This document shows, piece after piece, positions 43,198 through 57,349 of a stretch of DNA of 64,000 nt; position 1 is the first letter of the stretch, and each line of letters opens with the position of its first letter. Origin of the DNA: Acidobacteriota bacterium (GTDB lineage: Bacteria; Acidobacteriota; Terriglobia; Terriglobales; Acidobacteriaceae); assembly GCA_021780075.1 (NCBI GenBank), contig JAJXZL010000010.1, positions 1 through 64,000 of the forward strand, read 5' to 3'. The notes under the pieces were generated by a model. It made no database searches, was not told the DNA's origin, and saw nothing but the letters and a program-made list of their open reading frames with translations. The position numbers and the translations under genes were made by a program.

Positions 43198-43240
43198 CGT
43201 GACAGTTGTCACGGATAATAAAAGACTTTCCACGTACAAC
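43198..43240 (+). promoter_or_regulatory. CRP/FNR-like operator and -10 box of the hox operon
   Basis: The perfect palindrome CGTGACA-GT-TGTCACG contains GTGA-N6-TCAC (43199-43212). A -10-like TACAAC lies at 43235-43240, 22 nt after the site, which would put the site at -41.5 from a start near 43247. The hoxE GTG is 63 nt further on. Identical spacing and the same TACAAC occur before feoA. Confidence 0.6.
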
Positions 43241-43309
43241 GTATCTAGACACGGACCACAAAAGACTGCACAATCACTGTGCGACGAGCGCAGGCAAGAG
43301 GGAGGCATT

Positions 43310-43807
43310 GTGACTACATTCACCCCCCCGCCGCTACCAAGCGACGACAAACGTTGGAAGATCGTGAACGGAACGATGCGCAAAAACGGCTTTGCACGTC
43401 ATGCGCTGATCGAAACACTTCACACCGTGCAGTCCTCGTTCGGATATTTAGACGATGACTCCATCCGCTTCGTGGCTCGCTCCCTCCGCGTGCCTCTCAG
43501 CCAGGCTTATGGCGTGGCGACCTTCTACCACTATTTCAGCCTGAAGCCGCCCGGCGAGCACACCATGACCATCTGCACCGGCACGGCCTGCTACATCAAA
43601 GGCGCAGACAAGTTACTGGCCGAGTCGGAAATGAAGCTCGGTGTCGCACTCGGCCAAACGACCGCCGACGGCAAGGTCAGCCTCATGACCGCTCGTTGCG
43701 TAGGCGCATGCAGTCGCGCCCCGGTTGTACTCTGCGATGGAAAAGTCTCGGGCGAAATGTCCCGCGAGCAACTGATTGAGCAGCTTGAAAGGTGGACGGT
43801 GGAATGA
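43310..43807 (+). CDS. hoxE: NAD-linked hydrogenase diaphorase subunit HoxE
   Basis: HoxE is a thioredoxin-like [2Fe-2S] protein homologous to NuoE of complex I. The GTG at 43310 follows 'gggagg' and gives 165 aa; the track start at 43199 lies in the operator. The cluster ligands are in '[11 protein letters not shown]' and '[11 protein letters not shown]' (CX4C...CX3C). '[35 protein letters not shown]' is the family helical part. It starts the five-subunit hox operon, and its stop overlaps hoxF. Confidence 0.93.
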
Positions 43808-45444
43808 ACCTCGACGAGCTTGAACTAATTGCGAGAAGCGTTCGCCAGGAAAACGCGGCGTATGACTATGAGTTGAATGTCTGCATGGATCTCGCCTGCG
43901 CCAGCCAGGGTGCGGAAATGCTGCGCGAAGCGCTCATCGCCACCGGCGACACATCTGGCAAAAAGGTACTGGTTCGCCGTACGGGCTGCATGGGACCCTG
44001 TTCCTCTGGCCCGATGGTCAGGGTTGACCCCGATGACACGCTCTACGGCCATGTCCATGCCGATCACGCGGAAAAGATTCTCTCCAGCCTTGGTAACGAG
44101 CCCGTCGCCGTGCTGCAATGCGATCTGAACGAGCACTTCGACAAGCAGGTGCGCGTGGTGCTGGAAAACGCAGGCCACATCGACCCTGAGAAAATCGACG
44201 ACTACATTGCGCGCGATGGCTACAAAGCCTTGCTGACCGCGCTCACTGAAATGACGCCCAACGGCGTGGTCCATCGCATCACGGAGAGCGGGCTGCGCGG
44301 GCGCGGTGGCGGAGGCTATCCTACGGGCCTCAAATGGGGAACGGTAGCCAAGGCCGGCGGCGACGTGAAGTATATCGTCTGCAACGGCGACGAGGGCGAT
44401 CCCGGCGCGTTCATGGATCGTAGCGTGATGGAAGGCGACCCGCATCGCATCATCGAAGGCATGGCCATCGCGGGTTACGCAGTCGGTGCCAGCAAGGGCT
44501 TCATGTATGTGCGCGCGGAGTATCCCGTGGCCGTCGCCCGGCTCACAACTGCGCTGCGCGAGGCGCGTCGCCGCGGACTGCTGGGCAGCAACCTCTGCGG
44601 AACCACATTCAACTTCGATGTCGAAATCCGCTTGGGCGCAGGCGCTTTTGTCTGCGGAGAAGAGACAGCGCTCATCGCCTCGATTGAAGGCAAGCGCGGC
44701 ACTCCCAAGCCGCGTCCGCCGTATCCCGCGGTGAGCGGACTGTGGGGCAAGCCCACGCTCATCAACAACGTGGAAACCTTCGCCAACATCGCGCCCATTG
44801 TGCGCAACGGAGGCAAGTGGTTTGCCAACATGGGCTCGGAGAGAAGCAAAGGCACCAAAGTCTTCGCGCTCACCGGCAAGATCGCCAACACCGGCCTGGT
44901 GGAAGTGCCCATGGGGATCAAACTGCGCGAGATCATTGAGGTCATCGGCGGCGGTGTACCCAACGGGCACACCTTCAAGGCAGTGCAGACAGGAGGCCCT
45001 TCAGGCGGCTGCATCCCCGCGGAAATGCTGGACCTCGGCGTCAGTTACGATGCCCTGCTCAAAGTAGGTTCGATCATGGGATCGGGCGGCATGATCGTCA
45101 TGGACGATACCTCCTGCATGGTCAACGTGGCGCGCTTCTTTGTGGAGTTCTGCATGACCGAGTCCTGCGGCAAGTGCATTCCCTGCCGCGCCGGCACGGC
45201 ACAGATGTACAAGCTGCTGACGCGCATCTGCGACGGCTCCGGCACCATGGACGACCTGAGTCTGCTTGAGGAACTCTGCGTCACCGTCAAGGAAACCAGC
45301 CTCTGCGGACTGGGCATGACCGCGCCTAATCCCGTCTTGAGCACGCTCAAATACTTCCGGAATGAGTACGTCGATCACATCGTGCACAAGCGCTGCACGG
45401 CCGGCGTGTGCAACATCAAAGCGCCCGCGGAGGTGCTGGCATGA
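43804..45444 (+). CDS. hoxF: NAD-linked hydrogenase diaphorase subunit HoxF
   Basis: HoxF carries FMN, the NAD(H) site and iron-sulfur clusters, and passes electrons between NAD(H) and HoxU. The ATG at 43804 overlaps the hoxE stop (ATGA) and gives 546 aa; a GTG at 43792 is possible. It has an N-terminal [2Fe-2S] domain ('[10 protein letters not shown]', '[12 protein letters not shown]'), the FMN loop '[17 protein letters not shown]', the NAD motif '[13 protein letters not shown]' and the [4Fe-4S] motif '[13 protein letters not shown]'. The stop overlaps the hoxU start. Confidence 0.95.
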
Positions 45445-46154
45445 GCGAAAATGTTGAAGTCAAAACACTGGTCATCGATGGTCAGGAAGCAAGTGCACGC
45501 CGCGGCCAGACCATTCTTGAAGTGGCGCGGGAAAACAACATCAACATCCCCACCCTCTGTCATCTTGAAGGGTTAAGCGACGTGGGCGCCTGCCGCTTGT
45601 GCCTGGTGGAGATCGCAGGCAGCAACAAGCTGTTGCCTGCCTGTGTCGCCACGGTGTCAGAAGGCATGGAGGTAAGCACCAACACAGAGCGGCTGGCGAA
45701 GCATCGCCGCACCATCCTCGAACTGCTCTTCGCCGAGCGCAATCACATCTGCTCAGTCTGCGTGGCCAATGGCCACTGCGAACTGCAGTCGCTCGGGCAA
45801 TCGCAGGGATTAACGCATGTGCGGCTGCCTTATCGCAACCCCGAACTGACCGTGGATGCTTCGCATGAGCGCTTCACCCTCGATCACAATCGCTGTATCC
45901 TCTGCACGCGTTGCGTGCGTGTTTGCGCTGAGATTGAAGGTGCTCACGTGTGGGATGTGATGGGACGCGGCATCAACTCCATGGTCATCACCGACTTGAA
46001 CGATGACTGGGGAAACTCCAGTTGCACGCGCTGCGGTAAATGCGTCCAGGTATGCCCCACCGGTGCGCTCTTCGACAAGAGCCAGATTGGCTCCGAGCAC
46101 CCCAAGCATCCTGATTTTCTGCCATACCTGAACCTCATGAGGGAAGCGCAATGA
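45441..46154 (+). CDS. hoxU: NAD-linked hydrogenase diaphorase subunit HoxU
   Basis: HoxU, related to the N-terminal part of NuoG, holds a chain of iron-sulfur clusters between HoxF and HoxY. The ATG at 45441 overlaps the hoxF stop and gives 237 aa. It has a [2Fe-2S] plant-ferredoxin-like part ('[20 protein letters not shown]'), the His/Cys [4Fe-4S] motif ('[15 protein letters not shown]') and two ferredoxin motifs ('[11 protein letters not shown]', '[12 protein letters not shown]'). The stop overlaps hoxY. Confidence 0.95.
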
Positions 46155-46684
46155 GCAAATTGAAACTGGCAACTGTCTGGCTGGACGGATGTTCTGGCTG
46201 CCACATGTCGTTCCTCGACATGGATGAACGGCTACTTGCGTTGGCGGAACTTGTCGATGTGGTCTATAGCCCGCTCGTGGACACCAAGAGGTTTCCTGAC
46301 GAGGTGGATATCGCACTGGTCGAGGGAGCCGTGGCCTCCGTGGACGATGAGAAGAAAATCAAAAAAATTCGCGCGCACACAAAGACTCTGGTCGCGATAG
46401 GCGATTGCGCCGTGGCCGGCAATGTGCCATCCATGCGCAACCCCATCGGCCCTGAAGCGATTCTCAATCGCGCATATATTGAGAATGCCAGCGCACAGCA
46501 GCAAATTCCCTGCGTGGTTGTGCCCCGACTGCTTCAGGTCGTGCGCCCCATTCACGAGTTTGTGAAAGTCGACGTCTTTCTGCCCGGCTGCCCACCCTCT
46601 GCCGACACATTCCATACAGCGCTCACAGCGCTGGCAACCGGTGTACCGCTGGATATTTCAGCCCTCACACGATTTGGAGCCTAG
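46151..46684 (+). CDS. hoxY: [NiFe] hydrogenase small subunit HoxY
   Basis: HoxY is the small subunit carrying the proximal [4Fe-4S] cluster. It is 177 aa, the short form typical of group 3d enzymes, without a signal peptide, so the hydrogenase is cytoplasmic. The four candidate ligands are Cys14 and Cys17 ('[11 protein letters not shown]'), the Cys in '[12 protein letters not shown]' and the Cys in '[11 protein letters not shown]'. The start overlaps the hoxU stop (ATGA), and hoxH follows after 18 bp. Confidence 0.95.
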
Positions 46685-46702: not shown

Positions 46703-48124
46703 ATGAGCCAGACCATCACCATCGATCCCGTTACTCGCCTCGAAGGCCACGGCAAGATCACCATCCAACTCAACGGTCAGGGCGGAGTGGAAGACGCGCA
46801 CTTTCACGTCACACAGGTGCGCGGCTTTGAGCGCTTCGCCCAGGGCCGGCCTTTCTATGAGATGCCCAGCCTCATGGCGCGCATCTGCGGCATCTGTCCG
46901 GTCTCGCATCTCATCGCCTCGGCAAAAGCCTGCGAAGCCATCATGTCTGTCAGGATTCCGCACACCGCCGCGCAACTGCGCCGCATGTTGAACCTGGCGC
47001 AAATGGTACAGTCGCACGCGCTCAGCTTTTTCTATCTCGCCTCGCCAGACCTGCTGCTGGGCATGGAGTCAGACCCCGCGTCGCGCCACATCTTTGGCGT
47101 GGTCAGCGCCAAGCCTGAGCTGGGACGCGCCGGTATCGCTCTGCGCCGCTTTGGCCAGCACATCATCGAGTTGCTCGGCGACAAGCGCATTCATCCCGGA
47201 TGGGTTGTGCCCGGCGGCGTGACCGAACCGCTGTCCCCGGCCAAACGCGATGAAATTCTCGCCATGATTCCCGAGGCCTATGCCAACGTCAAGCTCGCGC
47301 TGGCCGCCTACAAGCAGATCGCTGACAGTTTCAAACCGGAGATCGAGGTCTTCGCTAACTTCCCGTCACTCTTCATGGGCCTCATCAATGAAGACGAGTC
47401 GGTGGAGTTCACCGACGGCACGCTGCGGCTCATCGACGCCAAGGGCAACATCGTTGACGACGGCATCACGGCAAGCAGATTCACTGAGGTCATCGGCGAA
47501 GCCGTCGAGGCCTACAGCTACACCAAGTTTGCCTACTACAAGCCGCTCGGCTACCCTGAGGGAAGCTACCGCGTGGGTCCGCTGGCGCGGCTCAACATTG
47601 CTAAAACCATGGGTACTCCGCTCGCGGACAAGGAACTCGCCGAGTTCAAGCAGTTGGCCGAAGGGCCTGTCCAGGGATCGTTCTACTATCACCATGCGCG
47701 GCTCGTTGACATGCTCTATGGCATCGAGAAGATTGAACAGATCCTGTCCGATCCGTTGATCCTCGACACGCACGTACGCGCCACAGCAGGAGTCAATCGC
47801 CTTGAGGGCGCAGGCCAGGCTGAAGCACCGCGCGGCACACTGATGCACAACTACAAAGTGGACGAAAACGGCCTCATCACCTGGGCCAACCTCGTCATCG
47901 CCACCGGCCAGAACAACAACGCCATGAATAAGGGCGTGCTGCAGGCCGCCCGGCATTACATCAAGGATGGCAAATTTAGTGAAGGCATTCTCAATCGCAT
48001 CGAGGCCGTCGTCCGCACCTTTGACCCCTGCCTCAGTTGCTCCACGCATGCCTTTGGACAAATGCCGCTGGACGTCACGCTCATCTCGGCCGATGGAGAA
48101 ATCGTCGATCGTGTTATGCGCTAG
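46703..48124 (+). CDS. hoxH: [NiFe] hydrogenase large subunit HoxH
   Basis: HoxH holds the Ni-Fe active site, where H2 is split or made. It is 473 aa. The first ligand motif is '[10 protein letters not shown]' (Cys62, Cys65) and the second 'DPCLSCSTH' (Cys443, Cys446, His449). A 24-residue tail beginning 'AFGQMPLDV' follows His449 and should be cut off by the protease encoded next. Together with HoxE, F, U and Y this is a bidirectional NAD-linked enzyme (group 3d by architecture). Such enzymes can oxidise H2 or release excess reductant as H2. Confidence 0.96.
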
Positions 48125-48148: not shown

Positions 48149-48619
48149 ATGAGCTTCAGCCCGGCCCGCTGTGTCATCCTCGCCTGTGGCAACACGCTGC
48201 GCGAGGATGATGGCGTGGGGCCGTGGCTTGCTCAATGGGCTGCAGCCAGATTCCATGCAGCACCTGACCTCCGCATCCTCTCGCGGCAACAGTGGACGCC
48301 CGAGTTGGCCGAAGATGCAGTCCGGGCGGAGTCGGTCATCTTTATCGACTGTTCAGCAGAATCTGCTCCCGGCGAGCTCACGCTTGCCCCCGTCGCGCCC
48401 GCGGATGGGTCCCCTGGACTGGCAACGCACCATCTGGACGCGGCGCAGCTGCTCTCTCTAGGCTCGCAACTCTACAACTCCCTACCCCGCACCGCACTGT
48501 TGTTTACCGTCGGCGCCGGCTCGATGGAGCTGCGTGAGGGGTTCAGCGACGCAGTGCAGGCTGCCCTGCCTGACGCCTGCCGCCTGCTTGAACAAACGGT
48601 CCTGCAGATGCTTGGCTGA
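48149..48619 (+). CDS. hoxW: Hydrogenase maturation protease (HoxW-like)
   Basis: This endopeptidase of the HycI/HyaD/HoxW family removes the C-terminal tail of the large subunit after nickel insertion. It is 156 aa, normal for the family. The nickel-binding acid is in 'CGNTLREDDGVGPWL', a second acidic ligand is in 'VIFIDCSAE', and the usual His is in 'LATHHLDAAQLL'. It follows hoxH by 24 bp and ends the operon. Confidence 0.93.
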   Translation: MSFSPARCVILACGNTLREDDGVGPWLAQWAAARFHAAPDLRILSRQQWTPELAEDAVRAESVIFIDCSAESAPGELTLAPVAPADGSPGLATHHLDAAQLLSLGSQLYNSLPRTALLFTVGAGSMELREGFSDAVQAALPDACRLLEQTVLQMLG

Positions 48620-53463: not shown

Positions 53464-53477
53464 GTGATGCGAGACAC
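53464..53477 (-). promoter_or_regulatory. Imperfect CRP/FNR-like site upstream of nifJ
   Basis: The sequence GTGATGCGAGACAC differs at one position from GTGA-N6-TCAC. It lies 76 bp before the PFOR start. The hexamer 22 nt downstream (GAGACT) is a poor -10 box, so this site is weaker evidence than the other four. Confidence 0.25.
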
Positions 53478-56001: not shown

Positions 56002-57126
56002 TTACGCCTTGGCAAACGCCGGCTTCTCTTCGCGGATATGGAACCGCTTTTCCAGAACCGCCATCTTCTCCGCGATGCCCGTATACTCAAGCTCGAACAT
56101 GGGCAGCATCGCCGTGCCGACAAATCCCTGCCGCCGGATATCCATGGTCTTCTTCGCCACCCGATTGCGCACCGTATCCCAGAACGGATGATCGAAATTA
56201 TCCATCGGCTCGGTCAGCCTGCCGTTGTGGACGCAGAATCCGGCACAACTCACAATGGGCGGCCCATCGAAGTAGCTGATGCCCGTGCTCAGCCGCACCG
56301 GCATCAGAGGAACCTGGTGCGAACCGCGCATGCCTCCGCCAACAAAGTGGCCAATCGCGTACGGCGCAAGAATTTCGCCCGTGGCCGGAAAGTTCATCTG
56401 CACGCGCACAAGCATCACCGGATCGTCTTTGCCCGTGTATTTCCCGGCAATGTTGTGCAGCCGCGAAGTGGCCACCGCTACCGCCTGCTCGCCCGTGGCG
56501 CGCGACCATATCGACTCCACCACAAAGCGCTCCGGATCGCGCAGCAGAGCCGCAACGTCGTAGATCTCCTCCGGAGTAGTCAGTTCGATAACCCGGTCGC
56601 CGGTCGTATTGTTCACATCCATGATGACGAACTTGTAGCCGCGCGAAATATTGGGCGACAGAATCAGCCCGGGCGTGTTCATCACATCCGCAAAAGCCAG
56701 ATACAGCGGCAGGTTGTATGCACCCGGATCGGTCTTGTCCGCCGCGAAAAAGAGAAACGGCTCGCTGGTGCGCTCGTCAATCTCCATCTCCGCCACGGCC
56801 GGGCCCATGCCCTTCACGTTGCCAGAGAAGGAGTCCTTCAGCAGGTCCTGCCCTGCTCCGTACAGTCCCTCTTGCCGCGCGGCATTCGTGCCCGTGCGAA
56901 ACGCATCCCAGGCCAGCTGATGAACTTGCTCATCGTTCGGCCCGTGCGTGTGCGTCATCAGAATCGCAATGTCGTCCCCGGTATAGCTGATGTAGTGGTC
57001 AAGCAACAGTCCGGGTGCTCGCTTCCCGACGTAGTCCCTGACGGTTGCAAGAAGCTGTTGCGATGGAGCGACGTGTCCGCCGATGGAGCCGATATCTGCC
57101 TTGATCACGCTTAAGGTCAATTTCAT
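56002..57126 (-). CDS. fbp: Bifunctional fructose-1,6-bisphosphate aldolase/phosphatase
   Basis: This is the archaeal-type FBPA/P, which condenses triose phosphates and dephosphorylates the product in one active site, making gluconeogenesis one-way. It is 374 aa. Family segments are 'LSVIKADIGSIGGHVAPS', 'DHYISYTGDDIAILMTHTHG', 'AWDAFRTGTNAARQEGLYGAGQDLLKDSFSGNVKGMGPAVAEME' and 'STGISYFDGPPIVSC'. It is known in archaea and deep-branching bacteria. A GTGA-N6-TCAC site with a well-spaced GATAAT -10 box lies just upstream, predicting a leader of about 11 nt starting with a GGGGGTGAG ribosome binding site. Confidence 0.93.
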   Translation of the reverse strand: MKLTLSVIKADIGSIGGHVAPSQQLLATVRDYVGKRAPGLLLDHYISYTGDDIAILMTHTHGPNDEQVHQLAWDAFRTGTNAARQEGLYGAGQDLLKDSFSGNVKGMGPAVAEMEIDERTSEPFLFFAADKTDPGAYNLPLYLAFADVMNTPGLILSPNISRGYKFVIMDVNNTTGDRVIELTTPEEIYDVAALLRDPERFVVESIWSRATGEQAVAVATSRLHNIAGKYTGKDDPVMLVRVQMNFPATGEILAPYAIGHFVGGGMRGSHQVPLMPVRLSTGISYFDGPPIVSCAGFCVHNGRLTEPMDNFDHPFWDTVRNRVAKKTMDIRRQGFVGTAMLPMFELEYTGIAEKMAVLEKRFHIREEKPAFAKA

Positions 57127-57143: not shown

Positions 57144-57185
57144 ATTATCCCCCCATTTCATTCCGCATGGGGTGACTCGAGTCAC
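57144..57185 (-). promoter_or_regulatory. CRP/FNR-like operator and -10 box of the FBP aldolase/phosphatase gene
   Basis: The perfect 14-bp palindrome GTGACTCGAGTCAC (57172-57185) is followed, reading leftward, by exactly 22 nt and then GATAAT (57149-57144), five of six matches to the -10 consensus. A site centred at -41.5 predicts transcription from about 57137. Confidence 0.6.
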
Positions 57186-57307: not shown

Positions 57308-57349
57308 GTGATTTAGGTCACATCCTTCACCTTCCGCCCTTGGTACAAC
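57308..57349 (+). promoter_or_regulatory. CRP/FNR-like operator and -10 box upstream of feoAB
   Basis: GTGATTTAGGTCAC (57308-57321) fits GTGA-N6-TCAC, and TACAAC (57344-57349) follows after 22 nt, the same hexamer and spacing as in the hox promoter. The predicted transcript would have a leader of about 215 nt before feoA. Confidence 0.5.

Follow-up and report, generated by a model that had tools for sequence, protein, structure and literature searches.

A conserved Crp/Fnr-type operator in the hox hydrogenase promoters of an acidobacterial clade, and a candidate regulator

The FNR half-site is TTGAT, which differs from the GTGAY of the hox promoter described here, and the cysteine ligands of Escherichia coli FNR are Cys20, Cys23, Cys29 and Cys122. 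Rex operators have the same GTGA-N6-TCAC core as the hox operator and serve a redox-type regulon. For Acidobacteria, which rank with the most abundant bacteria in soil, work on hydrogenases has for the most part recorded whether the genes are present or absent (for example PMC5900883, PMC9599518), and no report of Crp/Fnr control of hox in Acidobacteria was found in the open-licence papers searched. The bidirectional hydrogenase genes of Synechocystis, hoxEFUYH, have the gene order found here, but the operon is described as controlled by regulators of different families, LexA, AbrB1 and AbrB2 (PMC4264147). Class II promoters of the FNR/FnrP type (E. coli FNR; Paracoccus FnrP, PMC4771820) resemble the acidobacterial hox promoter in an operator at -41.5 and a -10 element without a -35 element; their regulons are alike in cytochrome bd, ferrous iron uptake, Usp and hydrogenases. 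CRP-type operators read by proteins with Arg180 and Glu181 (E. coli CRP; Desulfovibrio HcpR) share the GTGA-N6-TCAC core and the RET recognition helix; the HcpR consensus is wTGTGAnnnnnnTCACAw, and Arg180 and Glu181 were tied to the G and A of GTGA (PMC1274295). In the hox operator, however, C/G prevail at the fifth base (57/63 and 50/63), the outer T/A are not kept, and the gene set behind the sites is not hcp/frdX. Crp/Fnr class II control is a known mechanism; the acidobacterial hox promoter would be a further instance of it, possibly with a variant sensor.

The hox operon and its conserved operator

The window, i.e. the whole analysed stretch of 64,000 nucleotides, contains a complete hoxEFUYH set followed in order by a maturation protease gene (Table 1), as expected of a Hox-type [NiFe] hydrogenase that is bidirectional and NAD(P)-linked, putatively of group 3d. 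The DNA is acidobacterial: the nearest hoxE loci were all labelled Acidobacteriota or Acidobacteriaceae, with a top identity of 96 %. The likeliest hoxE start is the GTG behind GGGAGG; the open reading frame that begins within the palindrome, at 43199, is a purely mechanical call.

Table 1. Coordinates of the hox operon, of operators and of promoter elements in the window
Feature	Position	Strand	Remarks
hox operator CGTGACAGTTGTCACG, Crp/Fnr type (predicted)	43198-43213	+	core GTGAC-N4-GTCAC 43199-43212, centre 43205.5; core GTGAY-N4-RTCAC in 63/63 orthologous promoters
hox promoter -10 hexamer TACAAC	43235-43240	+	TAnAA 29 or 30 nt from operator centre in 55/63
hox transcription start (inferred)	43247	+	geometry: 7 nt after -10, puts operator at -41.5; in relatives TAG common at +40 to +43, 44/63
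hoxE, GTG start behind GGGAGG	43310-43807	+	NF005747 HoxE, 222.9 bits (cut-off 224), 1 bit under
hoxF	43792-45444	+	NuoF-like diaphorase subunit, operon position
hoxU	45408-46154	+	NF005745 HoxU, 376 bits, above cut-off
hoxY, [NiFe] hydrogenase small subunit	46151-46684	+	
hoxH, [NiFe] hydrogenase large subunit	46703-48124	+	
hydrogenase maturation protease	48149-48619	+	TIGR00072, above cut-off
asymmetric element of related type, GTGTCTCGCATCAC, ahead of PFOR (minus strand, start ~53387)	53464-53477	-	GAGACT 53441-53436 starts 29.5 nt from centre
same-type operator GTGACTCGAGTCAC, upstream of fructose-1,6-bisphosphate aldolase/phosphatase gene (56002-57108, minus)	57172-57185	-	
same-type operator GTGATTTAGGTCAC, upstream of feoA	57308-57321	+	TACAAC 57344-57349, same spacing (29.5 nt from centre)

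The operator lies 97 nt upstream of the hoxE GTG (43310). Its two 7-bp arms are perfectly complementary on either side of the central bases GT, in agreement with a preliminary description of this DNA, which had claimed a 16-bp palindrome save for two central bases. The further claims of that description on the promoter proved right as well: the gap of 22 nt to TACAAC holds when counted from the 14-bp core (21 nt from the 16-mer), the same hexamer recurs at feoA, and the operator is centred at -41.5 if transcription starts at 43247. The hox copy was the sole exact motif copy in the window. With up to 3 mismatches, the 64-kb window yielded 3 matches against 2.98 expected, thus chance level, so conservation had to decide.

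Eighty loci encoding HoxE relatives were compared, reading 250-400 nt upstream. GTGAY-N4-RTCAC was present in all 63 closest acidobacterial hox promoters (the window and L001-L062), a mirror-image control pattern in none of them, so the conservation upstream of hoxE that the preliminary description had proposed to check was found. One of these promoters, L037, belongs to a cultivated relative, Occallatibacter savannae AB23. An exhaustive scan of all 1024 five-base half-sites with an N4 spacer gave GTGAC in 46/63, GTGAT in 2 and any other in at most 1. Among all four-base inverted repeats with gaps of 0-12, GTGA-N6-TCAC ranked first (63/63); TGAC-N4-GTCA (46) and CGTG-N8-CACG (21) overlap the hox palindrome, and the next-best repeat reached 13. 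Eight outer bases of the operator were invariant, the central four and both flanks variable. Since the distance from operator to hoxE start varied from 74 to 216 nt, the conservation is not plain sequence similarity. By their common ancestry the relatives are not independent evidence, a point against our preferred explanation. In more distant hox loci the palindrome occurred within 250 nt in only 4 of 18. The conservation is limited to one clade, within which the claim of a Crp/Fnr-type operator near -41.5 is supported.

The spacing of the promoter was conserved together with the operator. In 55/63 promoters the distance between the operator centre and the first base of TAnAA was 29 or 30 nt, against an expectation of 0.29 per position, and a TAG lay near the inferred start in 44. 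No consistent -35 element was present among the 63 promoters, the best TTGACA match having at most 4/6 and mostly 2-3 identical bases. The predicted layout is that of a class II (-41.5) activator promoter, with the start placed by geometry. Two other promoter elements were considered and rejected: TAGACA-N17-CACAAT, located downstream and the sole consensus promoter in a simple scan, occurs in only 13/63 relatives, and GATAAT (43214-43219), which adjoins the palindrome and could act as -10, in only 1/63.

Two further features accompany the promoters. About 29 of the 63 hox promoters (L001-L062 with the window) have a TGGGAT or GGGAT whose first base precedes the operator core by 17-21 nt, and the same element stands at a similar place ahead of the PFOR element; TGGGAT itself occurs in 14/63, against a maximum of 7 for any 6-mer in shuffles. 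The leader, 43247-43300, has a possible stem-loop GCACA-N5-TGTGC in the window and in near relatives, with other pairings elsewhere. Its folding was only mildly better than that of shuffles (mean z -0.9, 61 leaders), and no known RNA element of Rfam was present in the hox leader.

Like sites in the genome and the PFOR promoter

The own genome contains 54 GTGAYNNNNRTCAC sites compared with 14 for the control. Of the 51 sites that were read, 46 are intergenic, though 83-87 % of positions were called coding by the crude codon model used for gene calls around these sites. TAnnnT peaks at exactly +29/+30 of the own-genome sites. Searches with CGTGACNNNNGTCACGG and 2 mismatches were discarded as a genome-wide approach (87 and 83 matches against 111 and 128 in the control), and the -10-coupled pattern gave few matches per genome in 30 genomes.

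The genes behind the sites include those for CydA, a group-1-like hydrogenase small subunit, phosphoketolase, citrate synthase, 6-phosphofructokinase, the fructose-1,6-bisphosphate aldolase/phosphatase, a NapH-like ferredoxin protein, CcmE- and CcsB-like proteins and a multihaem cytochrome. Also behind sites are Usp genes, named by eye, and feoA, named by eye and by the preliminary description. The cydA operator is retained in 10 of the 17 close genomes having cydA. By gene content, the set looks more like a low-oxygen regulon of the FNR type than like a catabolite regulon. The preliminary description had left the sensor open between a redox and a cAMP type; cydA, feoA, Usp, hydrogenases and PFOR behind the sites favour a redox/oxygen-type sensor over a sugar-type cAMP-CRP. 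The set is not confined to genes specific for low oxygen, however: citrate synthase, DAHP synthase and an ATP synthase subunit b-like gene are also included and count against a low-oxygen reading.

A second, group-1-like [NiFe] hydrogenase (L119:1737-2801, contig C32 of the own genome) is preceded by the like operator GTGACGCTCATCAC at L119:1579-1592, which is only partly kept in close relatives. A short cNMP-binding-like protein (PF00027) with no evident HTH is encoded at L112:972-1385 behind the operator GTGACGCGTGTCAC.

On the minus strand, the PFOR gene converges on the hox operon. In the PFOR promoters of the window and of L220-L244, the element TGTG[TC]-N5-ATCAC occurs in 17/17 close genomes, with T or C and never A as fourth base; a TAG region near +41 is conserved as well. 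The full palindrome stands within 350 nt of PFOR in 7 of the 9 acidobacteria that are more distant. The hox-like geometry and these full palindromes make a joint control of PFOR and Hox likely and suggest that pyruvate oxidation and hydrogenase may be under common low-oxygen control, which would favour electron disposal at low oxygen. Against shared control counts the asymmetry of the PFOR element, which may be a weakened site or the site of another regulator.

Candidate regulators

Four clear Crp/Fnr HTH proteins (R1-R4) are encoded in the own genome. R1, on contig C18, has the Crp/Fnr fold (cNMP-like domain and HTH_Crp_2; PF13545, 77.2 bits), and its residues 13-234 match solved Crp/Fnr proteins including an FNR. 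R1, R2 and R4 share the recognition helix [ST]RETVTR, in R1 SRETVTR, whose Arg and Glu fit the rule that ties Arg180 and Glu181 to GTGA (PMC1274295). R1 was found with 83-99 % identity in 19/19 operator-bearing main-clade genomes tested, R2 with at least 80 % in 17/19 and 60 % in another, and R4 with 49-56 % in 12/19. The best R1 match in the other 11 genomes was at most 57 %, and four of these (L060, L061, L066, L080) still have the palindrome before hoxE, so that co-occurrence of R1 and operator is good but not exclusive. R1 is the best candidate for the regulator that binds the hox operator. A short cNMP-binding-like protein without evident HTH, read by eye, is encoded just upstream of R1 (L081:242-907).

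CX2CX8C is common to R1 and R2, as is an invariant Cys64 (R1 numbering). In R1, Cys13, Cys16, Cys25 and Cys64 are invariant, while Cys112 occurs in 19 of 20 close R1 proteins; R2 has no Cys at the latter place. R1 differs from E. coli FNR in the helix (SRETVTR vs TVETISR), the CX2CX8C spacing and the extra Cys64, as compared in an alignment with E. coli FNR and CRP; this spacing counts against reading R1 as an FNR sensor. R1 also differs from HcpR, which is said to lack the cysteines. Paracoccus FnrP uses Cys14, Cys17, Cys25 and Cys113 (PMC4771820), close to Cys13, Cys16, Cys25 and Cys112 of R1. By this analogy an Fe-S cluster in R1 is plausible, with Cys64 or Cys112 as possible fourth ligand. 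A plain equivalence of Cys112 to FNR Cys122 was set aside, as the residue is three columns off in the alignment and some homologues have Val, Ser, Thr or Gly instead; the FnrP numbering leaves room for it.

Proposed mechanism and alternatives

The observed site, its conservation, the promoter geometry and the genome-wide set of like sites can be explained with fair confidence by an activator of the R1 type that would induce hox at low oxygen from a class II site. A dimeric Crp/Fnr-superfamily protein would bind the palindrome at about -41.5 and replace the -35 element beside a weak -10, TACAAC, which RNA polymerase alone would use poorly. R1, FNR-like with its CX2CX8C motif, would probably bind when oxygen is scarce and co-activate a regulon made up of energy and low-oxygen genes. 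Induction of hox would then go along with that of its neighbour PFOR, so that under low oxygen the hydrogenase would most likely serve to discharge electrons that come from NAD(P)H and from the oxidation of pyruvate. The parts of this reading differ in strength: R1 is somewhat more likely than not to be the protein, the promoter layout makes activation rather than repression very likely, the gene content somewhat favours oxygen as the signal, and H2 evolution as the direction of the enzyme is an evenly balanced call.

The same class II operator might instead be bound by the paralogue R2 or R4, the signal being cAMP, NO or another redox cue. This is rather unlikely. The recognition helix is common to all three proteins, and R2, nearly as widespread as R1 and with the same cysteine cluster, counts against the choice of R1; yet R4 has no close relative in 7/19 operator-bearing genomes and R2 none in G017, a genome that keeps the operator (incompleteness of the MAG is possible), whereas R1 is present in all 19. 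R4 is CRP-like, without a Cys cluster, and adjoins a histidine kinase. A repressor, e.g. a Rex-like NADH sensor, that blocks transcription from a promoter overlapped by the palindrome or from one farther downstream is very improbable. The GTGA-N6-TCAC core would suit Rex, GATAAT adjoins the palindrome and TAGACA/CACAAT is the sole consensus promoter, but neither promoter is conserved to the extent of TAnAA at +29/+30, and the conserved -10 on the far side of the operator suggests activation. A Rex operator was also rejected because the own genome gave 0 matches to the Rex family PF06971, which was hit in 7 of the 14 control genomes. A functionless palindrome that arose by chance, compatible with the motif count in the window, has a negligible probability in view of its presence in 63/63 promoters at a fixed -10 spacing and the intergenic like sites across the genome.

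Tentatively, R1 and its relatives may represent an acidobacterial kind of oxygen/redox sensor that joins a CRP-type, GTGA-reading helix to non-canonical cysteines (CX2CX8C, Cys64 in the beta-roll) and may, in these abundant soil bacteria, govern a global low-oxygen regulon that spans Hox, PFOR, cytochrome bd, ferrous-iron uptake and genes of central carbon metabolism. Control in common with PFOR and cytochrome bd points to electron disposal when oxygen is low. With a conserved operator, a named candidate regulator and a defined target set, the timing of Hox use becomes directly testable, and the motif, GTGAY-N4-RTCAC with a -10 element 29-30 nt from its centre, is portable and may point to likely oxygen responses in uncultured acidobacterial genomes.

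The remaining Crp/Fnr protein, R3, has the helix VRELISR, is unlikely to read GTGA and adjoins a nitric-oxide-reductase-like gene. Two identical CGCGACTTTAGTCACTG sites flank the R3 region (C20:14836-14852 and C20:19518-19534, near L083/L133) and possibly belong to a separate NO-type regulon.
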